From positions 361,001 through 425,000 of the forward strand of contig NZ_CP133465.1 of assembly GCF_031191185.1 (NCBI RefSeq): a DNA stretch of 64,000 nt. The letters are read 5' to 3'. Positions 2,259-46,363 of the stretch are shown piece by piece. The position numbers were made by a program, and so were the translations under genes. Position 1 is the first letter of the stretch, and each line of letters starts with the position of its first letter. A model generated the notes under the pieces. It was given only the letters and a program-made list of their open reading frames with translations, was not told where the DNA came from and ran no database searches. Source of the stretch: Prevotella nigrescens. Its GTDB lineage: Bacteria > Bacteroidota > Bacteroidia > Bacteroidales > Bacteroidaceae.

Positions 2259-3026
2259 ATGAGAAATAAATGGGTGTTTATAGTGCTTTGGCTTGCTTTT
2301 ACAAGTTTCATAATAGAAAATTTGCATAATAACGATGTTCAAAGACAATGGCAAACAACTAACAAACAAAGGCAAAAAACTTCATCTGCACAGCGCATGG
2401 AGCAGCAAGGATTCGTAGATATAAAAAGTATAGACCCTACAATAAAGGTGGCTTTGATGTATGCCCGGACCGACAATTTTTGCCACAAACAACTTTATAA
2501 AAGCTTACGTACAGCCTATATGCTACCCCAATGCGCCGCAGCTTTGAAGAAAGCACAAGCTGAACTGAAACGAATTCGCCCAGATTTAAGCCTCATCATT
2601 TTCGATGCAACACGCCCAATGAGCGTACAACAAACTATGTGGAACACTGTAAAGAATACCAACCATAGATTTTATGTCTCTAATCCTGCCAACGGAGGAG
2701 GCATGCACAACTATGGAATGGCAGTAGACATAAGTATTTGCAAAGCTTCGTGGAGCGAAAAGCTATGGCGCGATGGTGCAATACCATGTAAGATAGATAC
2801 TATTCCGATGGGAGTTAAGGTTGACCATTTGGGAAATGAAAGCCATATAGACAACGAACAACAGCTATTAATACGAGGTGTACTCAACAAGGAGAGCCTT
2901 GAGAACCGTAGATTGTTGCGCCGTGTTATGAAAGCAGCAGGTTTTCAGCCACTACGAACAGAGTGGTGGCACTTTAATCTTTGTACACGCAAATGGGCAA
3001 AGGTGCATTTAGAAGTTATTAAATAA
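2259..3026 (+). CDS. M15-family D-Ala-D-Ala dipeptidase (VanX/DdpX-like)
   Basis: Predicted zinc D-alanyl-D-alanine dipeptidase acting on peptidoglycan peptides in the envelope. The family signature is clear: 'GGGMHNYGMAVDIS' supplies the first zinc His and Asp, and 'EWWHFN' near the C-terminus supplies the catalytic Glu and third zinc ligand. The N-terminus has one hydrophobic segment (about residues 5-19), so it is exported or membrane-anchored. I use ATG 2259 (255 aa) because the promoter at 2205-2236 would initiate downstream of the GTG at 2238. No vancomycin-resistance genes are nearby, so a housekeeping cell-wall role is more likely. Confidence 0.85.
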   Translation: MRNKWVFIVLWLAFTSFIIENLHNNDVQRQWQTTNKQRQKTSSAQRMEQQGFVDIKSIDPTIKVALMYARTDNFCHKQLYKSLRTAYMLPQCAAALKKAQAELKRIRPDLSLIIFDATRPMSVQQTMWNTVKNTNHRFYVSNPANGGGMHNYGMAVDISICKASWSEKLWRDGAIPCKIDTIPMGVKVDHLGNESHIDNEQQLLIRGVLNKESLENRRLLRRVMKAAGFQPLRTEWWHFNLCTRKWAKVHLEVIK

Positions 3027-3050
3027 TTCTCACCTTATTATATATAGCAT

Positions 3051-4280
3051 TTGGAAACATCAGAATTTATCCGACAGTATGCTAACGATGATGTTAGGGC
3101 ACTCGCACTTATGGGAAAGCGTTTTCCAAAGGTGGACTTGCCCTACGCACTCGACCAGATTAGAGGGCGACAATTAGCACGAATAAAACTACCTACATGG
3201 GCAAATACGGAAGGAATAGTCTATCCACCGCACTTAAACATGGAACAATGTTCAAGCGAACCAACCGCTTTGTATAAACAAGATATTGTGAGGCGTTTGC
3301 TGCGAAAGCTTCCAACAGAGAATAATTCTACGCTAATCGATCTTACAGGAGGACTGGGGGTGGACTTTTCTTATATGTCAATGCTTTTTAATAATGCCCT
3401 TTATGTAGAACGAAACAAGCAACTCTACGACATAGCACTGCAAAATTTTGAATGTTTAAAGCTTAATAATATAACTACAGAAAATAAAGATTCCATAGAT
3501 GTCTTGCACCATCTCAGCAGTGTTTCTATATTTTTTTTAGACCCAGCACGTCGCAACAGCAATGGCGAGAAAGTTGTTTCGATGGCAGATTGCGAACCCA
3601 ACGTACTGGAATTGTGCGATGAAATGGTGAAAAAGAGCTGTTTTACCATTATAAAACTATCACCGATGTTAGACTGGCATAGTGTGGTGGCGCAACTAAA
3701 GCATGTGATTGAAGTACACATCGTATCGGTTAAAAACGAGTGTAAAGAGCTTTTAGTAGTGCTGGGCAACCATAAAAAGGAAGAGCAAGACGGTAAAGAG
3801 CAAACTATAAAAATATTTTGTGCAAACGATAACGATGTATTCTACTACGATGAGAATATAAATTACAGTCAGAAATACACATCCCAACAACCAATAATCG
3901 ACAAAAACACATTACAAACATCGTACCTATACGAACCGAATGCTTCTATTATGAAAGCTGGCTGCTTTGCCCAGTTAAGCGAAACATACCATGTAGCAGC
4001 AATAAGCAATAATTCTCATCTATTCGTGTCCCCAGTTTTACTGTCTAAATTTCCAGGAAGGAAGTTCAGAATTACACATATTTGCACGCTAAACAAGAAA
4101 GAAATACGCCGCGCTCTAACAAATATAACACAAGCAAACATAGCCGTAAGGAACTTTCCTATGGGAGTAGAAGACCTAAAAAAACGGTTAAAACTACACG
4201 ATGGTGGCACTAATTATATCTTCGCAACAACTTATGGCGAAAAAGAGCATGTACTAATATTCAGCAAAAAAGAGGTGTAA
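3051..4280 (+). CDS. THUMP-like class I SAM-dependent methyltransferase
   Basis: A 409-aa protein with a central Rossmann-type SAM-binding motif, 'LIDLTGGLGVDF' (about residues 96-107). 'FFLDPARR' resembles the catalytic D/N-P-P-x motif region of nucleic-acid methyltransferases. This matches a Bacteroidota family usually annotated as a THUMP-like or class I methyltransferase, probably acting on RNA; the substrate is unknown. The start is a TTG at 3051, 25 bases after the M15 stop; the next in-frame ATG is about 20 codons in and would cut conserved-looking sequence. It is probably co-transcribed with the M15 gene. Confidence 0.75.
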   Translation: METSEFIRQYANDDVRALALMGKRFPKVDLPYALDQIRGRQLARIKLPTWANTEGIVYPPHLNMEQCSSEPTALYKQDIVRRLLRKLPTENNSTLIDLTGGLGVDFSYMSMLFNNALYVERNKQLYDIALQNFECLKLNNITTENKDSIDVLHHLSSVSIFFLDPARRNSNGEKVVSMADCEPNVLELCDEMVKKSCFTIIKLSPMLDWHSVVAQLKHVIEVHIVSVKNECKELLVVLGNHKKEEQDGKEQTIKIFCANDNDVFYYDENINYSQKYTSQQPIIDKNTLQTSYLYEPNASIMKAGCFAQLSETYHVAAISNNSHLFVSPVLLSKFPGRKFRITHICTLNKKEIRRALTNITQANIAVRNFPMGVEDLKKRLKLHDGGTNYIFATTYGEKEHVLIFSKKEV

Positions 4281-26720: not shown

Positions 26721-26772
26721 CTGCTGACGGACAAGCTAACGATTATTTTTTAATAGTTAATATAGTTCTAAG

Positions 26773-26800
26773 TCCCGCAAATTCTTCTGAGTTTGCGGGA
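26773..26800 (+). terminator. Rho-independent terminator of pnp
   Basis: tcccgcaaa (26773-26781) pairs with tttgcggga (26792-26800), followed directly by tttttgttt. Confidence 0.85.
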
Positions 26801-27333
26801 TTTTTGTTTCTAACCTACACGCAAGTCCAGTATAGGAAAGCAGGTTGGGCAAGCAATCCTATAGATATTCTTTTAGCGAACCTCCTAATAAAATAGTCAG
26901 AGTTGTTCTCTCTAACTTTGTAAAGACAATTTTATAAAAAACCGATGATTACACTTTGACATTGCGAAAGCGGCTCTTTTGCGATGCAAAACATACGCTT
27001 TTACCGTGCAAAACAGCCACTTTTGGAACGCAAAACAATAGGTTCTGTAATGCGTTGATGAACAGATGGTTAGGCAATAGTTACTCTTGTGAAAAATATT
27101 TACACGCTTGTTGCCTTCTTTTCATTCATAAAACAACTCGTGTTAATCTACCGAAAGCCCGATGAAACCGAAGATTTTTGCATATAAGAGCTATGAGATA
27201 GGCAGATTATTGAACAGGTCTGTCATGGTTATAAGATTAGTACGGCTTCTTTATAACGGCTTTGTACAGAAACATACACACCTCTGCAACTCCTCCTTTC
27301 TGCATTTCCTGCTTAATAAAAGCACCCTATTCC
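26801..27333. other. Intergenic region holding 22-bp array A
   Basis: About 530 bases with no convincing gene; short open frames here lack any recognisable feature. The tandem array at 26963-27050 is the main structure. Confidence 0.6.
26963..27050. repeat. 22-bp tandem repeat array A, four units
   Basis: Units begin at 26963, 26985, 27007 and 27029, each exactly 22 bases. The shared pattern is tgcaaaa-x-a at the start and cttttgg/cttttgc near positions 14-19. At the first unit junction this gives ttttgc-gat-gcaaaa, a 6-bp dyad. Flanking 22-mers decay out of match. The same family occurs at 43797-43884 and, degenerate, near 39672-39736. Confidence 0.75.
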
Positions 27334-39441: not shown

Positions 39442-39546
39442 AGTTTATGAGTGCTGCAAACTTACGCATTTTTTTTCAATTACGCGGTCTTTCGCACCAC
39501 AAATATAGCTTATTCTTTGCACACCGCAGTCTTTCATTTCATTTTT

Positions 39547-39743
39547 ACCATGGTTCTGCAACTTTTTTACCATAGTTCTGTATTTGTTTTATCGGCACAA
39601 AACAGTAATATCTACACGTAGATACGAGCGTACCTACACTTAAATACAATTGTACTTGCGCACAAGTACTACAACAGAGAGCCTGTTTAACGATAACAGA
39701 ACGGTGGTTTTGTTGGCAAAATACCATGCAAAAGAAACCGCAA
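39547..39743. repeat. 22-bp periodic region C, degenerate
   Basis: Adjacent 22-mers match in pairs. 39547-39568 and 39569-39590 share accat-x-gttctg at the same place. 39612-39633 and 39634-39655 agree at 17 of 22 positions, starting ctacac and ending gtac. From 39672 to 39736 three more units (22, 21, 22 bases) show agagcctgttt, ggttttg and ggcaaaa at the places expected from arrays A and B. Confidence 0.55.
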
Positions 39744-41894: not shown

Positions 41895-43547
41895 CTACTC
41901 CTTAGACTTTGAAAAATAATGCTCTTTGTTGGTTTTAAGGTCGAGCCAGCCACTAACGCCGTCCTTCACTATGTGGTAAAAGTATCGAGTGCTCTGTTCC
42001 AACTCATCGTAAACAGGTGTGTCGTTGTACGAATAGATGCCCGCTTTGCCACCTTTGTAGAAATAAATATATCCGTCGTTGTGCATCATAATAGAGTCGT
42101 AGACCATCGGAAGAATTGTTTCGCCCTTTAGAGTCCGCACAGGATAAGTCATCAATGGTCTTTTCCAATCACCCTGACCTACTGTACCTTCCTTAGGTTC
42201 CACATCGTTTGGCAGTTTATAATCGTAAGCAAGAATACCAAATTTGCCATTTCTTCCTACTCTTATCCATTCTGGACGTACATCGAGATCTCCCAGAAAC
42301 CAACTGTTTCCATTGCATCTGTACTCTTTTTTTCCATCAAGAAAGGTAAGAGAGTCAGAAGGTTGGCAGTCTGAAAGCACGTAACGTTTGTCTTCTTCGC
42401 AGGTTACACCAGGTCCACCAGTGTAGTATTTCAGCTGGTGTTGCCCACGTTTCTTTAGCAAACTATATGTCCAATGAGGTACAGTGCCGCAAACTTCAAA
42501 CTGTATTTTCCAAGGATTTTTCATCTTTTTCCCCATTTCATCGTAGTAAAAATCACCATTTCTGTTCAGCACATTTATGCAACCAATCATACAATTAGGT
42601 ATTTCATACGCAACCAGGGCGTTTCCCAAGTCGAGCTTTTGAAGGTAAAGATTGTACACATCAACCCCTTTCTTTGTATGCGCAATAATAAAACGGTCTC
42701 CACAAATAATGCTGTCGTAATCTTGTTTCAGCATATTTTCGCCGAAAGCGTTCACCAATTGGCACCTACCTTCGTCCGTTTTCTTAACGTTCAAGAAGTC
42801 TTTAAGAACAATATTCATGAAGTCGTAGGGTGCAGCAGCATCGTATTTATTTCCTGCTTCTGTTAGTTCCGCAGGTTGGCATTCGCGAGATAATTTCACA
42901 AACTGGTCGCTTTTAATCGTTGGAAGCAACAAATAATCGAATGTTCTATAGGCGAATAACAAAACCGTCTTCCCTCCTTTCATTTCCAAAACAAGCGGAT
43001 TTAATGGTTGAGACACCCCACGCCAGGTTGTAACCGAGTCTGGAACACACGAAGAAATAGTTATTACGCTGTATGCATACCTATCAGCCTTGGCATAACG
43101 CAGCAGTTGAGCAAACGCAAGGTCGGGTCGCAAGAACTTCAAAACATAGCTCGAGTTTTCTTCATTGCGCTTCCATTTGCCGCCTTCTTTGATATCGAAC
43201 GTCTTTCCAACATAGTTTTCGAGAGCTATGGGACGCAGATTATCTACATCAACGAAACGCTCTCCCCTTTTTTCAATATCGTTTCTACTTAGTGTATCAT
43301 TGCAAGAATATAAATCCCAGACCATCTGATAAGCTGCAGAAGCTTTGCTTATGCTTATTTTTTTCCGATCTATTTGCAAACGTCTTTGAGCATAACGGTC
43401 GGTGCCTACTTTTTTATAAAGGTCTATCCAACTGCCATCTACGTCGTAACCTATGGCATCAACATCGGGCAAAGACAGTCGTTGCTGCGCATAAAGACTG
43501 GTTGCCATACAGTAAAAAAATAGAAAAAGGAAAATATTTTTCTTCAT
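41895..43547 (-). CDS. Secreted WG-repeat-like protein
   Basis: 550 aa with a signal peptide ('MKKNIFLFLFFYCMATSLYA'). The C-terminal half has degenerate WG-type repeats ('LVNAFGENMLKQDYDSIICG', 'WIRVGRNGKFGILAYDYKLP', 'KDGVSGWLDLKTNKEHYF'). No catalytic motif is visible. WG-repeat proteins are common surface or periplasmic proteins in Bacteroidota with mostly unknown roles. It is convergent with the helicase-SprT pair and appears to be a single-gene unit. Confidence 0.65.
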   Translation of the reverse strand: MKKNIFLFLFFYCMATSLYAQQRLSLPDVDAIGYDVDGSWIDLYKKVGTDRYAQRRLQIDRKKISISKASAAYQMVWDLYSCNDTLSRNDIEKRGERFVDVDNLRPIALENYVGKTFDIKEGGKWKRNEENSSYVLKFLRPDLAFAQLLRYAKADRYAYSVITISSCVPDSVTTWRGVSQPLNPLVLEMKGGKTVLLFAYRTFDYLLLPTIKSDQFVKLSRECQPAELTEAGNKYDAAAPYDFMNIVLKDFLNVKKTDEGRCQLVNAFGENMLKQDYDSIICGDRFIIAHTKKGVDVYNLYLQKLDLGNALVAYEIPNCMIGCINVLNRNGDFYYDEMGKKMKNPWKIQFEVCGTVPHWTYSLLKKRGQHQLKYYTGGPGVTCEEDKRYVLSDCQPSDSLTFLDGKKEYRCNGNSWFLGDLDVRPEWIRVGRNGKFGILAYDYKLPNDVEPKEGTVGQGDWKRPLMTYPVRTLKGETILPMVYDSIMMHNDGYIYFYKGGKAGIYSYNDTPVYDELEQSTRYFYHIVKDGVSGWLDLKTNKEHYFSKSKE

Positions 43548-43988
43548 AAGTACATTTATTTTTGAGACAAAGATAAGAAATTTGAAGAATAAAGACCTGC
43601 ATTTTAAGAAACTTTATGATAGTACGAATTTATATATTGATAGACGGAACAGGGGGAGGAGTTGAGCTAAAGCGTGAAAACTACAGAACAAGCAAGACTT
43701 TAATATTTGCGATTATCTAACGCACACTTAAGGCATCATGGCGTTTTAAAAACAGCGAAAATATTGTTCGGATAACTATTTAATACTCAACATACTACAA
43801 AAAGCTATCGTTTTGCCTTGCAAAAGAGCCTGTTTGGCAATGCAAAAGAGCCTGTTTGGCAATGTGAAACAAGCTCTTTTAAAAAGTTAGAAAACATAGA
43901 ATACATAATATTCCTACAAGCGCTAATATTAAAAAAACTAAAAATAGCCCATTATATAAGGTGTATGGAAAAAGTTTGCTTACTTTTG
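43548..43988. promoter_or_regulatory. Intergenic region before topA, with -7 box and array B
   Basis: 440 bases without a gene. It contains the 22-bp array at 43797-43884 and a TACTTTTG -7 box at 43981-43988; no TTTG -33 box is found at the usual distance. The -7 box fixes the topA start at 44018. Confidence 0.6.
43797..43884. repeat. 22-bp tandem repeat array B, four units
   Basis: Units begin at 43797, 43819, 43841 and 43863. Units 2 and 3 are identical over all 22 bases (tgcaaaagagcctgttt…). The junction of units 1 and 2 gives ttttgc-ctt-gcaaaa, the same dyad as in array A. Unit 4 shares tg-x-gaaa and gctctttt with unit 1 of array A. Confidence 0.8.
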
Positions 43989-44017
43989 CGCCCTTGAATA
44001 ATGTTACTAATGCTGAT

Positions 44018-46363
44018 ATGCAAGAAAACTTAGTTATAGTGGAAAGCCCTGCAAAGGCGAAGACAATAGAGAAGTTCTTAGGCGAAGACTTTAAAGTAAT
44101 GTCGTCTTACGGACATATTCGTGATTTGAAAAAGAAAGAGCTGAGTGTGGATTTGGACACTTTAGAAGCCAATTACGAAATTCCGGAAGAGAAGAAGAAG
44201 GTTGTTTCAGAACTTAAAAAGAACGCAAAAGCCGCCAAAAAGGTTTGGTTGGCATCCGATGAAGACCGCGAAGGAGAAGCCATAAGCTGGCACCTTTGCG
44301 AAGTTTTAGGTCTCGACGAAGCAAAAACAAGTCGCATTGTGTTCCACGAAATTACGAAACCAGCCATTCTTGCCGCCATTCAGAATCCCCGTCATTTGGA
44401 CATGAACCTTGTAAACGCACAGCAAGCACGCCGTGTCTTGGACCGTTTGGTAGGTTTCCGCCTGTCTCCGGTGTTGTGGCGCAAAGTAAAACCGGCACTA
44501 AGCGCAGGGCGCGTGCAAAGCGTTGCCGTACGGTTGATAGTAGAACGCGAGCGCGAAATACAAGCATTTAAGTCTGAGCCCTATTACAGAATAAGCGCAA
44601 TATTCGCTGCAACAAGCGAAGACGGCACGAAAAACGAGGTGAAGGCAGAACTAAACAAGCGTTTTTCTACGCACGAAGAGGCGTTGGCGTTTCTTGAACA
44701 GTGCAAAACGGCATCGTTCAAAATATCTTCCATCGCCAGGAAACCGCTGAAACGTACCCCCGCCCCTCCCTTTACAACATCTACATTGCAACAAGAAGCT
44801 GCACGCAAACTCGGCTTCACAGTAAGTCAGACCATGATGGTGGCACAGCGGTTGTACGAAGCAGGACGCATTACATACATGCGTACCGACAGCGTAAACC
44901 TCTCGTCGCTCGCCATCAGCACGACCCAAAAAGAGATAGAGCGCTTATATGGCACCGAATATAGTCAGACTCGGAAATATCACACCAGCAGCAAGGGGGC
45001 ACAAGAAGCCCACGAGGCTATCCGTCCAACCGACATGAGTGCACACAACATAGACGGAACCAGTCAGGAAAAACGTCTTTACGACCTTATCTGGAAGCGC
45101 ACGGCAGCATCGCAAATGGCAGATGCCAAGATAGACAAGACCACTGTTTCTATTGCCATCTTCGATACGGAAGGGCACGAAGCAGCCGACTTGCAATTCG
45201 TAGCCACGGGCGAAGTAATTACATTCGACGGCTTTCTGAAAGTTTATCGCGAGTCTACTGACGACGAAAACGAGAACGAAGACACGTCGCACGCACTGCC
45301 GGCAATGAACGAAGGTCAGCTTCTGGAACGGCGCAGCATAGTTTCCACCGAGCGCTATTCCATGGGACCAAGTCGCTACACAGAAGCAAGTCTTGTGCAT
45401 AAGCTCGAAGAACTGGGCATTGGCCGCCCATCAACATACGCTCCAACCATCTCGACCATTCAGCAACGCGAGTACGTTCAGAAGGGAGAAAAGAAGGGAG
45501 AAGAACGTACATACATCGTAGACACATTACAGGCACTGAAGATTACTTCGAAGAACAAGAAGGAAATGGCAGGTGCCGATAAGGGAAAACTTATTCCAAC
45601 CGACATTGGCATCGTGGTAAACGACTTCCTCATGGAGAACTTCCCAGACATTATGGACTACAATTTCACAGCAAAAGTAGAACAAGAGTTCGATAAAATC
45701 TCGGAGGGAAAGGCAAAATGGAACACTGCAATGAAAGATTTCTATAAGCATTTCGAACCCGAAGTGGAATCCGTAATGAATGCACGGTCGGAGCATAAGG
45801 CTGGTGAACGCGAGTTAGGAGTAGACCCTAAGACCAACAAACCCGTATTTGTAAAGATTGGACGCTTCGGTCCTGTCGTGCAAATCGGCACTGCCGATGA
45901 TACGGACAAGCCCCGCTTTGCGCAAATTCCGACTGACAAGAGTATGGAGACACTCACGCTCGACGATGCATTGGAACTGTTTAAGCTGCCACGCACGGTC
46001 GGACAGTTTGAAGGAACCGACGTCGTGATTGGCACAGGACGTTTCGGCCCATACATAATGCACAACAAAAAGTATGTCTCATTGCCCAAAGAGGAAGATC
46101 CTTTGACAGTTTCGCTTGACACAGCCATACGCCTGATAGAAACAAAACGGCTCCAAGATGCACAAAGACACCTTAAACAGTTCGACGAAGACCCGAAGCT
46201 GGAAGTAATGAACGGTCGTTACGGCCCATACATTGCATACGACGGAAAGAACTATCGCATACCAAAAGCCATGCACGAAAGGGCTGCCGAACTTACGTAT
46301 GAAGAGTGTCAAGACATTATGAAGAATGCTCCTGAACCGAAAACAAAGCGCAAACGCAAATAA
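44018..46363 (+). CDS. topA: DNA topoisomerase I (TopA)
   Basis: 781-aa type IA topoisomerase that relaxes negative supercoils. The toprim domain starts at 'NLVIVESPAKAKTIEKFLG', with acidic residues in 'WLASDEDREGEAISWHL'. The catalytic tyrosine is in 'RITYMRTDSVNLSSLA', and 'GIGRPSTYAPTIS' is present. The C-terminus has three glycine/tyrosine repeats ('VKIGRFGPVVQIG', 'IGTGRFGPYIMHN', 'MNGRYGPYIAYDG') instead of zinc fingers, as usual in this phylum. The frame is open from 43961, but the -7 box at 43981-43988 argues for ATG 44018. Confidence 0.94.
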   Translation: MQENLVIVESPAKAKTIEKFLGEDFKVMSSYGHIRDLKKKELSVDLDTLEANYEIPEEKKKVVSELKKNAKAAKKVWLASDEDREGEAISWHLCEVLGLDEAKTSRIVFHEITKPAILAAIQNPRHLDMNLVNAQQARRVLDRLVGFRLSPVLWRKVKPALSAGRVQSVAVRLIVEREREIQAFKSEPYYRISAIFAATSEDGTKNEVKAELNKRFSTHEEALAFLEQCKTASFKISSIARKPLKRTPAPPFTTSTLQQEAARKLGFTVSQTMMVAQRLYEAGRITYMRTDSVNLSSLAISTTQKEIERLYGTEYSQTRKYHTSSKGAQEAHEAIRPTDMSAHNIDGTSQEKRLYDLIWKRTAASQMADAKIDKTTVSIAIFDTEGHEAADLQFVATGEVITFDGFLKVYRESTDDENENEDTSHALPAMNEGQLLERRSIVSTERYSMGPSRYTEASLVHKLEELGIGRPSTYAPTISTIQQREYVQKGEKKGEERTYIVDTLQALKITSKNKKEMAGADKGKLIPTDIGIVVNDFLMENFPDIMDYNFTAKVEQEFDKISEGKAKWNTAMKDFYKHFEPEVESVMNARSEHKAGERELGVDPKTNKPVFVKIGRFGPVVQIGTADDTDKPRFAQIPTDKSMETLTLDDALELFKLPRTVGQFEGTDVVIGTGRFGPYIMHNKKYVSLPKEEDPLTVSLDTAIRLIETKRLQDAQRHLKQFDEDPKLEVMNGRYGPYIAYDGKNYRIPKAMHERAAELTYEECQDIMKNAPEPKTKRKRK

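Follow-up and report, generated by a model that had tools for sequence, protein, structure and literature searches.

The 22-bp array that precedes topA in the window (the whole stretch of DNA analysed here, 64,000 nucleotides, C2:361001-425000) is the surviving core of a fixed-length extragenic element of about 187 bp, and in this element spacing is kept far more strictly than letters. The surrounding genome amounts to 2.68 Mb in 6 contigs, with C1 and C2 comprising 567,798 and 2,105,254 bases. We tentatively favour, at a probability nearly but not quite evenly balanced, the interpretation that the element is a phase-locked, curved, probably protein-bound DNA scaffold that would work through DNA geometry. 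The array, here called array B, and its setting comprise the following features.

41895-43547, minus strand: divergent open reading frame of 550 aa on the far side of array B, no NCBIfam match
43758-43894, minus strand: array B, a decayed element of PINSR type that has lost its left end module and covers positions 35-170 of the 187-position profile
43797-43818, minus strand: unit 4 of array B, ACAAAAAGCTATCGTTTTGCCT, diverged, core CGATAGC (GCTATCG on the plus strand), a word also present in P. pallens
43819-43840, minus strand: unit 3 of array B, TGCAAAAGAGCCTGTTTGGCAA, 22 of 22 bases as in unit 2
43841-43862, minus strand: unit 2 of array B, TGCAAAAGAGCCTGTTTGGCAA, core CAGGCTC (plus strand GAGCCTG)
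43863-43884, minus strand: unit 1 of array B in element orientation, TGTGAAACAAGCTCTTTTAAAA, core GAGCTTG (plus strand CAAGCTC)
43811-43825, no strand: junction dyad of array B, TTTTGCCTTGCAAAA, TTTTGC-CTT-GCAAAA
43981-43988, plus strand: candidate -7 box of topA, TACTTTTG, TAnnTTTG type
44018-46363, plus strand: topA, DNA topoisomerase I, TIGR01051 at 687.7 bits (cut-off 456.4)

Direct reading of 43797-43884 agreed with the initial annotation, which had described a 22-bp array there with two identical units and diverged outer ones: four 22-bp units are present, the middle two identical over 22 bases. This exact pair received the highest score (92) of the 24 TRF rows for the window, and the dyad that had been placed at the first junction was found at 43811-43825. 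The gap holding array B lies between divergently arranged genes. From the end of the array it is about 97 bp to the TAnnTTTG motif, which we take to be the -7 box of topA (Bacteroidetes type), and about 134 bp to the start codon of topA, an ATG at 44018. A block resembling this candidate box stands upstream of topA in most of the relatives printed. The promoter block of the window at 43930-44000 reads TATATAAGGTGTA ... AAAAGTTT ... TACTTTTGCG, with close variants in most of the topA loci of 27 relatives.

Array B scored 83.1 bits against the family profile on the minus strand (E 4.6e-24, in the stretches searched) compared to 64.1 bits on the plus strand, and is inverted relative to array A, the second array of the window, which lies beyond pnp.

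26770-26808, plus strand: separate terminator-like hairpin between pnp and array A, also present in the relative G108
26918-27104, plus strand: array A, full-length element of the family of array B, 157.7 bits, profile positions 1-187
26963-27050, plus strand: the four 22-bp units of array A, by direct reading

The last unit of array B had been likened to the first unit of array A; the letters do agree, but the positions are non-equivalent given the inversion, and the likeness is due to the palindromic arms rather than to matching positions. A further imperfect 22-bp repeat, TTTTACCATAGTTCTGCAACTG, is present in 2.2 copies at 39543-39591, apparently in intergenic DNA, and gives no match to the family profile.

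The family was sampled in 73 stretches around listed junction-pattern matches, using a by-eye consensus developed into an iterated profile, which yields a sample rather than a census. In the stretches fetched, the profile gave at least 178 matches in at least 88 non-overlapping places, arrays A and B included. Genome-wide, the 15-base family dyad with at most one mismatch was found 46 times forward and 52 times in reverse (many sites being counted twice, as the dyad is nearly self-complementary), compared to 0 for the reversed pattern. On this sequence evidence arrays A and B certainly form part of one dispersed family, as had been proposed; the family is not limited to two copies genome-wide, and no known IS or gene was found in the element. 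Small open frames of 93-183 codons overlap 23 of the 88 copies. A search of the window with 4227 Rfam models at the gathering score returned only a tRNA, and array B matched none.

The 39 full-length matches, a set selected for covering the profile, all measured 184-188 bp, with 23 of them at 187 bp. The element starts with TTGTAAAGATAATTC and finishes with GAAAAATATTTACA, and weak conservation continues for roughly 13 bases past the left end and 30 past the right. Between these end modules lie four units, each laid out as two bases, CAAAA, a 7-base core, TTTTG and three bases to give 22 bp. Core words are re-used: among 330 units with 136 words, CAGGCTC was counted 27 times, CAATAGG and GAGCCTG 23 times each, CCTACGC 19 times, CAGCCGC 14 times and GAGCCGC 11 times. 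The 7-base cores act as exchangeable words. The BOX elements of Streptococcus pneumoniae are built from an end module, a repeated middle and an end module; likened by description only, the present family has a similar modular build, with the number of middle units here mostly four. At L062:2913-3067, L078:10397-10558 and L041:2904-3093, the left end module was matched at both ends, inverted, and these elements look as if they were products of recombination through the palindromic units. At L058 (about 2959-3084), the units are bracketed by a long inverted repeat of tens of bases, unlike in the other copies printed.

Because length, place, abundance and host group agree, and not on account of its letters, the family is almost certainly PINSR, a non-coding 188-bp intergenic repeat described in 2015 by Naito et al., who report 177 and 184 copies for two strains of P. 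intermedia and list P. nigrescens, P. falsenii and P. disiens as further carriers (PMC4755523). The lengths of the full matches and the number of places fit this description, with array B itself partial. As to the host, among the named records returned, a set from which the window's own or very near genomes may be missing, TopA of the window was closest to that of P. pallens (96%), with P. falsenii and P. aurantiaca at 92%, which places the genome in the intermedia/nigrescens group; the latter two species also carry full elements before topA. The available passages on PINSR further report that copies overlap small annotated CDSs too and that the repeat is implicated in rearrangements, and leave its function and source unexplained; internal 22-bp units, cores and a spacing constraint do not figure in these passages and are features found here (PMC4755523). 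In P. intermedia ATCC 25611 a PINSR copy is reported downstream of tnaA (PMC4755523), whereas in this genome about 9 kb on each side of tnaA contain no element. This concerns a single site and not a defining letter of the repeat, and the window may belong to a different species, so the name PINSR is retained under this reservation. A narrow literature search returned no published description of the four-unit CAAAA-N7-TTTTG anatomy in 22-bp register, and among the matches listed PMC4755523 was the sole paper on PINSR under that name, with no later one. The wording of the initial annotation, a dispersed, spacing-constrained element, was right in both parts, and is to be amended in that the element is almost certainly this published repeat, of which array B is a decayed and inverted copy.

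When 40 near-full copies were compared to the consensus, 1631 substitutions were counted against only 10 indels (4 insertions and 6 deletions), and a recheck found no place counted twice; a looser length limit gave 69 copies with 3055 substitutions, 9 insertions and 9 deletions. Alignment of the window with G108 gave 391 mismatches and 38 gap events in intergenic DNA, and 5647 mismatches and 89 gap events in coding DNA. The ratio of indels to substitutions was 0.6% in the element, where the substitutions include exchanged core words, compared to 1.6% in coding and 9.7% in intergenic DNA (element vs intergenic, Fisher 2e-18); the copies were aligned with nhmmer and the intergenic DNA with blastn, which may shift the ratio, though hardly sixteenfold. 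In this genome, 216 of the 235 unit spacings below 40 bp were exactly 22, and exact CAAAA-Nx-TTTTG motifs had x=7 in 103 of 107 cases. Across nine genomes the spacing was exactly 22 in 367 of 406 cases, the arrays of the other eight having been found by a pattern in which N7 and one spacing are preset. The spacing constraint suggested initially was thus strongly borne out. Cores vary between species, and also at one shared place (before topA), while the register is unchanged.

The four-unit core has A4 and T4 tracts in alternation, one every 11 bp, and AA/TT autocorrelation (computed at lags 8-14, 20-24 and 33) was highest at 11 and 22 bp in all nine genomes. A periodicity of about 11 bp has been tied to the pitch of supercoiled DNA (PMC4132750); the A/T tract period is the same, but the available part of that work concerns a weak genome-wide bias, in contrast to the discrete repeat element found here. 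Among 342 tiles of the window, predicted curvature placed array A at the 99.4th percentile and array B above all, in a wedge model under which a phased control bends and an unphased control does not. The curvature is not independent evidence, since any A4/T4 array at 11 bp curves. The period of 11.0 is found in the four units and is absent from both end modules, and curvature phasing across the whole element was rejected.

Spacing that is kept without letters points to geometry, and the phase of the tracts to a curved or protein-covered segment. In the scaffold interpretation, tracts phased near the pitch of underwound DNA would produce a curved segment that displays repeated dyad sites on one helix face, and the candidate reader would be an architectural or topology-related protein, one that recognises the arms and accepts whatever 7-bp core lies between them. 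The rarity of indels, the exact spacing of 22, the autocorrelation at 11 and 22 bp, the high predicted curvature and the exchange of cores between species in a constant register all argue for this interpretation, as does array A, which differs from its G108 copy at 20 of 187 sites compared to 391 of 2327 in intergenic DNA (p 0.03). Against it, the 11-bp phasing is missing from both outer modules, and in pairs of loci from the relatives G170 and G156 the conservation of the element does not clearly exceed that of the flanking DNA. The spacing lock gives PINSR a testable function, by alteration of the register rather than the letters. If a protein reads the register, the copies would represent an abundant type of architectural site scattered through Prevotella genomes; if none does, they would be a clean case of a rigid-geometry repeat with free wording.

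REP/BIME elements bind gyrase, IHF or Pol I. According to the available parts of two descriptions (PMC2817692, PMC3733652), they resemble this family in their short extragenic palindromic units, regular spacing, occurrence in both orientations and high copy number, whereas the present family is distinguished by the absence of Y1/RAYT, an exact 22-bp register, AT arms round an exchangeable core and fixed end modules. REP/BIME units are palindromic and alternate in orientation. In the present family, 36 of the 88 elements contain two exactly reverse-complementary cores (permutation mean 8.9, maximum 18 in 2000 permutations), in 12 pair types and with related copies that are not independent in this statistic, as against none of the 31 arrays of G170 (0/15, null 2.6) and G156 (0/16, null 3.6). 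Elsewhere, paired arrays numbered 10/20 in P. bivia (null 4.7, null maximum 10), 3/6 in G089 (0.75), 3/5 in G102 (1.1), 5/6 in G063 (3.4), 3/8 in G012 (3.7) and 2/7 in G164 (3.05). Given the two genomes with no paired arrays, core pairing is not the common denominator. Folding was strong in seven genomes, with a mean z of -4.4/-4.7 for 40 elements of this genome and about -3.8 to -7 in the six others, and weak in G170 and G156 (z about -2).

The gene context was assessed in 169 array-bearing gaps of nine genomes, with genes called by a simple ORF rule after open frames across array centres had been dropped; 61 gaps were convergent, 84 co-directional and 24 divergent. Only the comparison of convergent with divergent gaps (p 7e-5) is relied on, since the neighbour of a convergent gap can never itself be convergent and a same-loci baseline is biased accordingly. 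Together with the 36 elements with complementary cores, the 12 pair types and the strong folding here and in six other genomes, the excess of convergent gaps would suit a bidirectional terminator or 3'-end RNA hairpin, in which adjacent units pair as A4-core-T4 stems and end or stabilise converging transcripts. We nevertheless consider this function unlikely. According to a simple in-house finder, 24 of 93 genes facing an element have a terminator of their own ahead of it, compared to 22 of 104 controls, so the element does not appear to replace an intrinsic terminator of the facing gene. Moreover, G170 and G156 combine weak folding with no paired arrays, and a terminator has no need of a fixed 22-bp register. 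Only 2 of 52 private cores had their own partner, which indicates that pairs come from word re-use; compensating mutation was rejected as a general rule. Column covariation placed the dependence mainly within cores and not between units, as the pairing units vary from copy to copy. For the scaffold interpretation, the pairing far above chance in this genome is an unfavourable point that we treat as secondary: it may be a side effect of the way units are copied in this species group rather than a conserved function, and G170 and G156 keep their arrays without exactly complementary cores.

The convergent preference would also fit an inert tandem repeat, spread by slippage and gene conversion and surviving away from promoters, and the core positions are interdependent within a unit, like converted tracts. 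Such an origin is very improbable in view of the indel depletion, the constancy of the register across species whose words are unrelated and the scarcity of copies that are off by about one unit length (two seen, L079 and L033).

After pnp, G108 has a counterpart of array A with the same unit order, beyond the separate pnp terminator, and an array follows pnp in G108, G017 (P. falsenii, with a topA identity of 1.000) and G063 among 12 relatives scanned. The consensus element ends (window 26918-26932 and 27091-27104) form an imperfect inverted repeat, matching by eye in 11 of 14 letters. A non-autonomous BIME/MITE-type mobile element, spread by an enzyme in trans and with the present arrangement as its copying structure, could account for these ends, for the fixed length with end modules in the 39 full matches, and for a dispersal with species-specific words that suggests separate amplifications. 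This, too, we judge to be rather improbable. The elements at arrays A and B are common to relatives, 11 of the 16 loci of G170 have a partner in G156 with an array at the same place (with both sets of loci chosen for having arrays, so that empty sites could not show), informal inspection of the flanks printed revealed no evident target duplication, and the available passages of Naito et al. report no terminal inverted repeat in PINSR (PMC4755523). A RAYT origin was rejected, as the Y1/RAYT transposase (PF01797) was not found in the own genome, with the control positive in 5 of 14 known genomes.

P. pallens, P. falsenii, P. aurantiaca and G108 all carry the element at the corresponding position before topA; in the three named species it is on the same strand as array B. 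It is full in G108, P. falsenii and P. aurantiaca (142.3 bits in the last) and decayed in P. pallens (72.8 bits), where four units remain in register and the word GCTATCG is found as in the window; in P. disiens, no copy was found within 2 kb before topA. At this place, P. falsenii and G108 have the cores GCGTAGG-GCGGCTG, P. aurantiaca has GAGTCTG-CAGGCTC and the window has GAGCCTG-GAGCCTG. The element is probably ancestral at the topA place. As the middle two units of the P. pallens copy differ from each other, the identity of those in the window does not have to reflect a recent duplication.

Of 27 relatives, 12 have a four-unit array (score 7 or more) at a distance of 60-900 bp ahead of topA. 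A special tie to topA was rejected, with arrays in 5 of 14 topA gaps vs 4 of 18 control gaps (p 0.45) when gaps of at least 200 bp at the same loci were compared, G108 and G017 left out; neighbouring cut-offs gave 6 to 4 (p 0.27) and 5 to 3 (p 0.25). The gap caller in this comparison missed arrays of G006, G113 and G157 that are visible by plain scan, and two of the control arrays (G012 and G082) are separated from topA by one more gene or gap. Array B stands at the end of a syntenic block common to the window and the 160 kb of G108 fetched. Syntenic blocks shared with the window end in G108:C1 near 432141 and 440076 (L259, L260), at a lone left module and a full element, in line with the reported role of PINSR in rearrangement.

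By PCR, PINSR was confined to its species group, and P. aurantiaca and P. pallens were tested but are not named as positive in the available passages (PMC4755523); here, in contrast, related arrays were found in other Prevotella including P. bivia, suggesting that consensus PCR misses relatives. With one mismatch allowed, TTTTGNNNYGCAAAANNNNNNNTTTTG passed a cut of at least 10 matches and at least four times the reversed control (matches being counted, not arrays) in 18 of 160 Prevotella genomes, the own genome included. Matches vs control were 1038/0 in G108, 820/74 in G017, 131/1 in G063 and 119/0 in G164, and G082 (124 vs 121), G113 (41 vs 11), G157 and G027 failed the cut. Outside the genus, 1 of 197 genomes passed (G216, 15 vs 3, with no repeated core among the matches listed). 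A blastn search with array A against 59 relatives (G108 not among them) found the full element only in G017 besides the own genome, and short unit matches in three others. The species inspected have core words of their own: P. bivia uses GATGACC and GGTAACC, and other words are GGGCTGC/GCAGCCC in G012, GACCGTC in G164, GATGCCC and GGTGCCC in G170 and G156, and GGATAGC and GCATAGC in G063. It is conceivable, though we lean against it, that PINSR is one dialect of genus-wide phase-locked 22-bp arrays, of which a conserved protein would read only the A/T arms and the phase; each species would then be free to rewrite its 7-bp cores, and the arrays would act as scattered sites of the nucleoid or of supercoil handling. 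The narrow literature search found no comparable system in Bacteroidota. In G164 (L214, L218, L222, L226 and neighbours), most of the seven arrays are bounded by palindromes around or near CATATATG, in 22-bp register.
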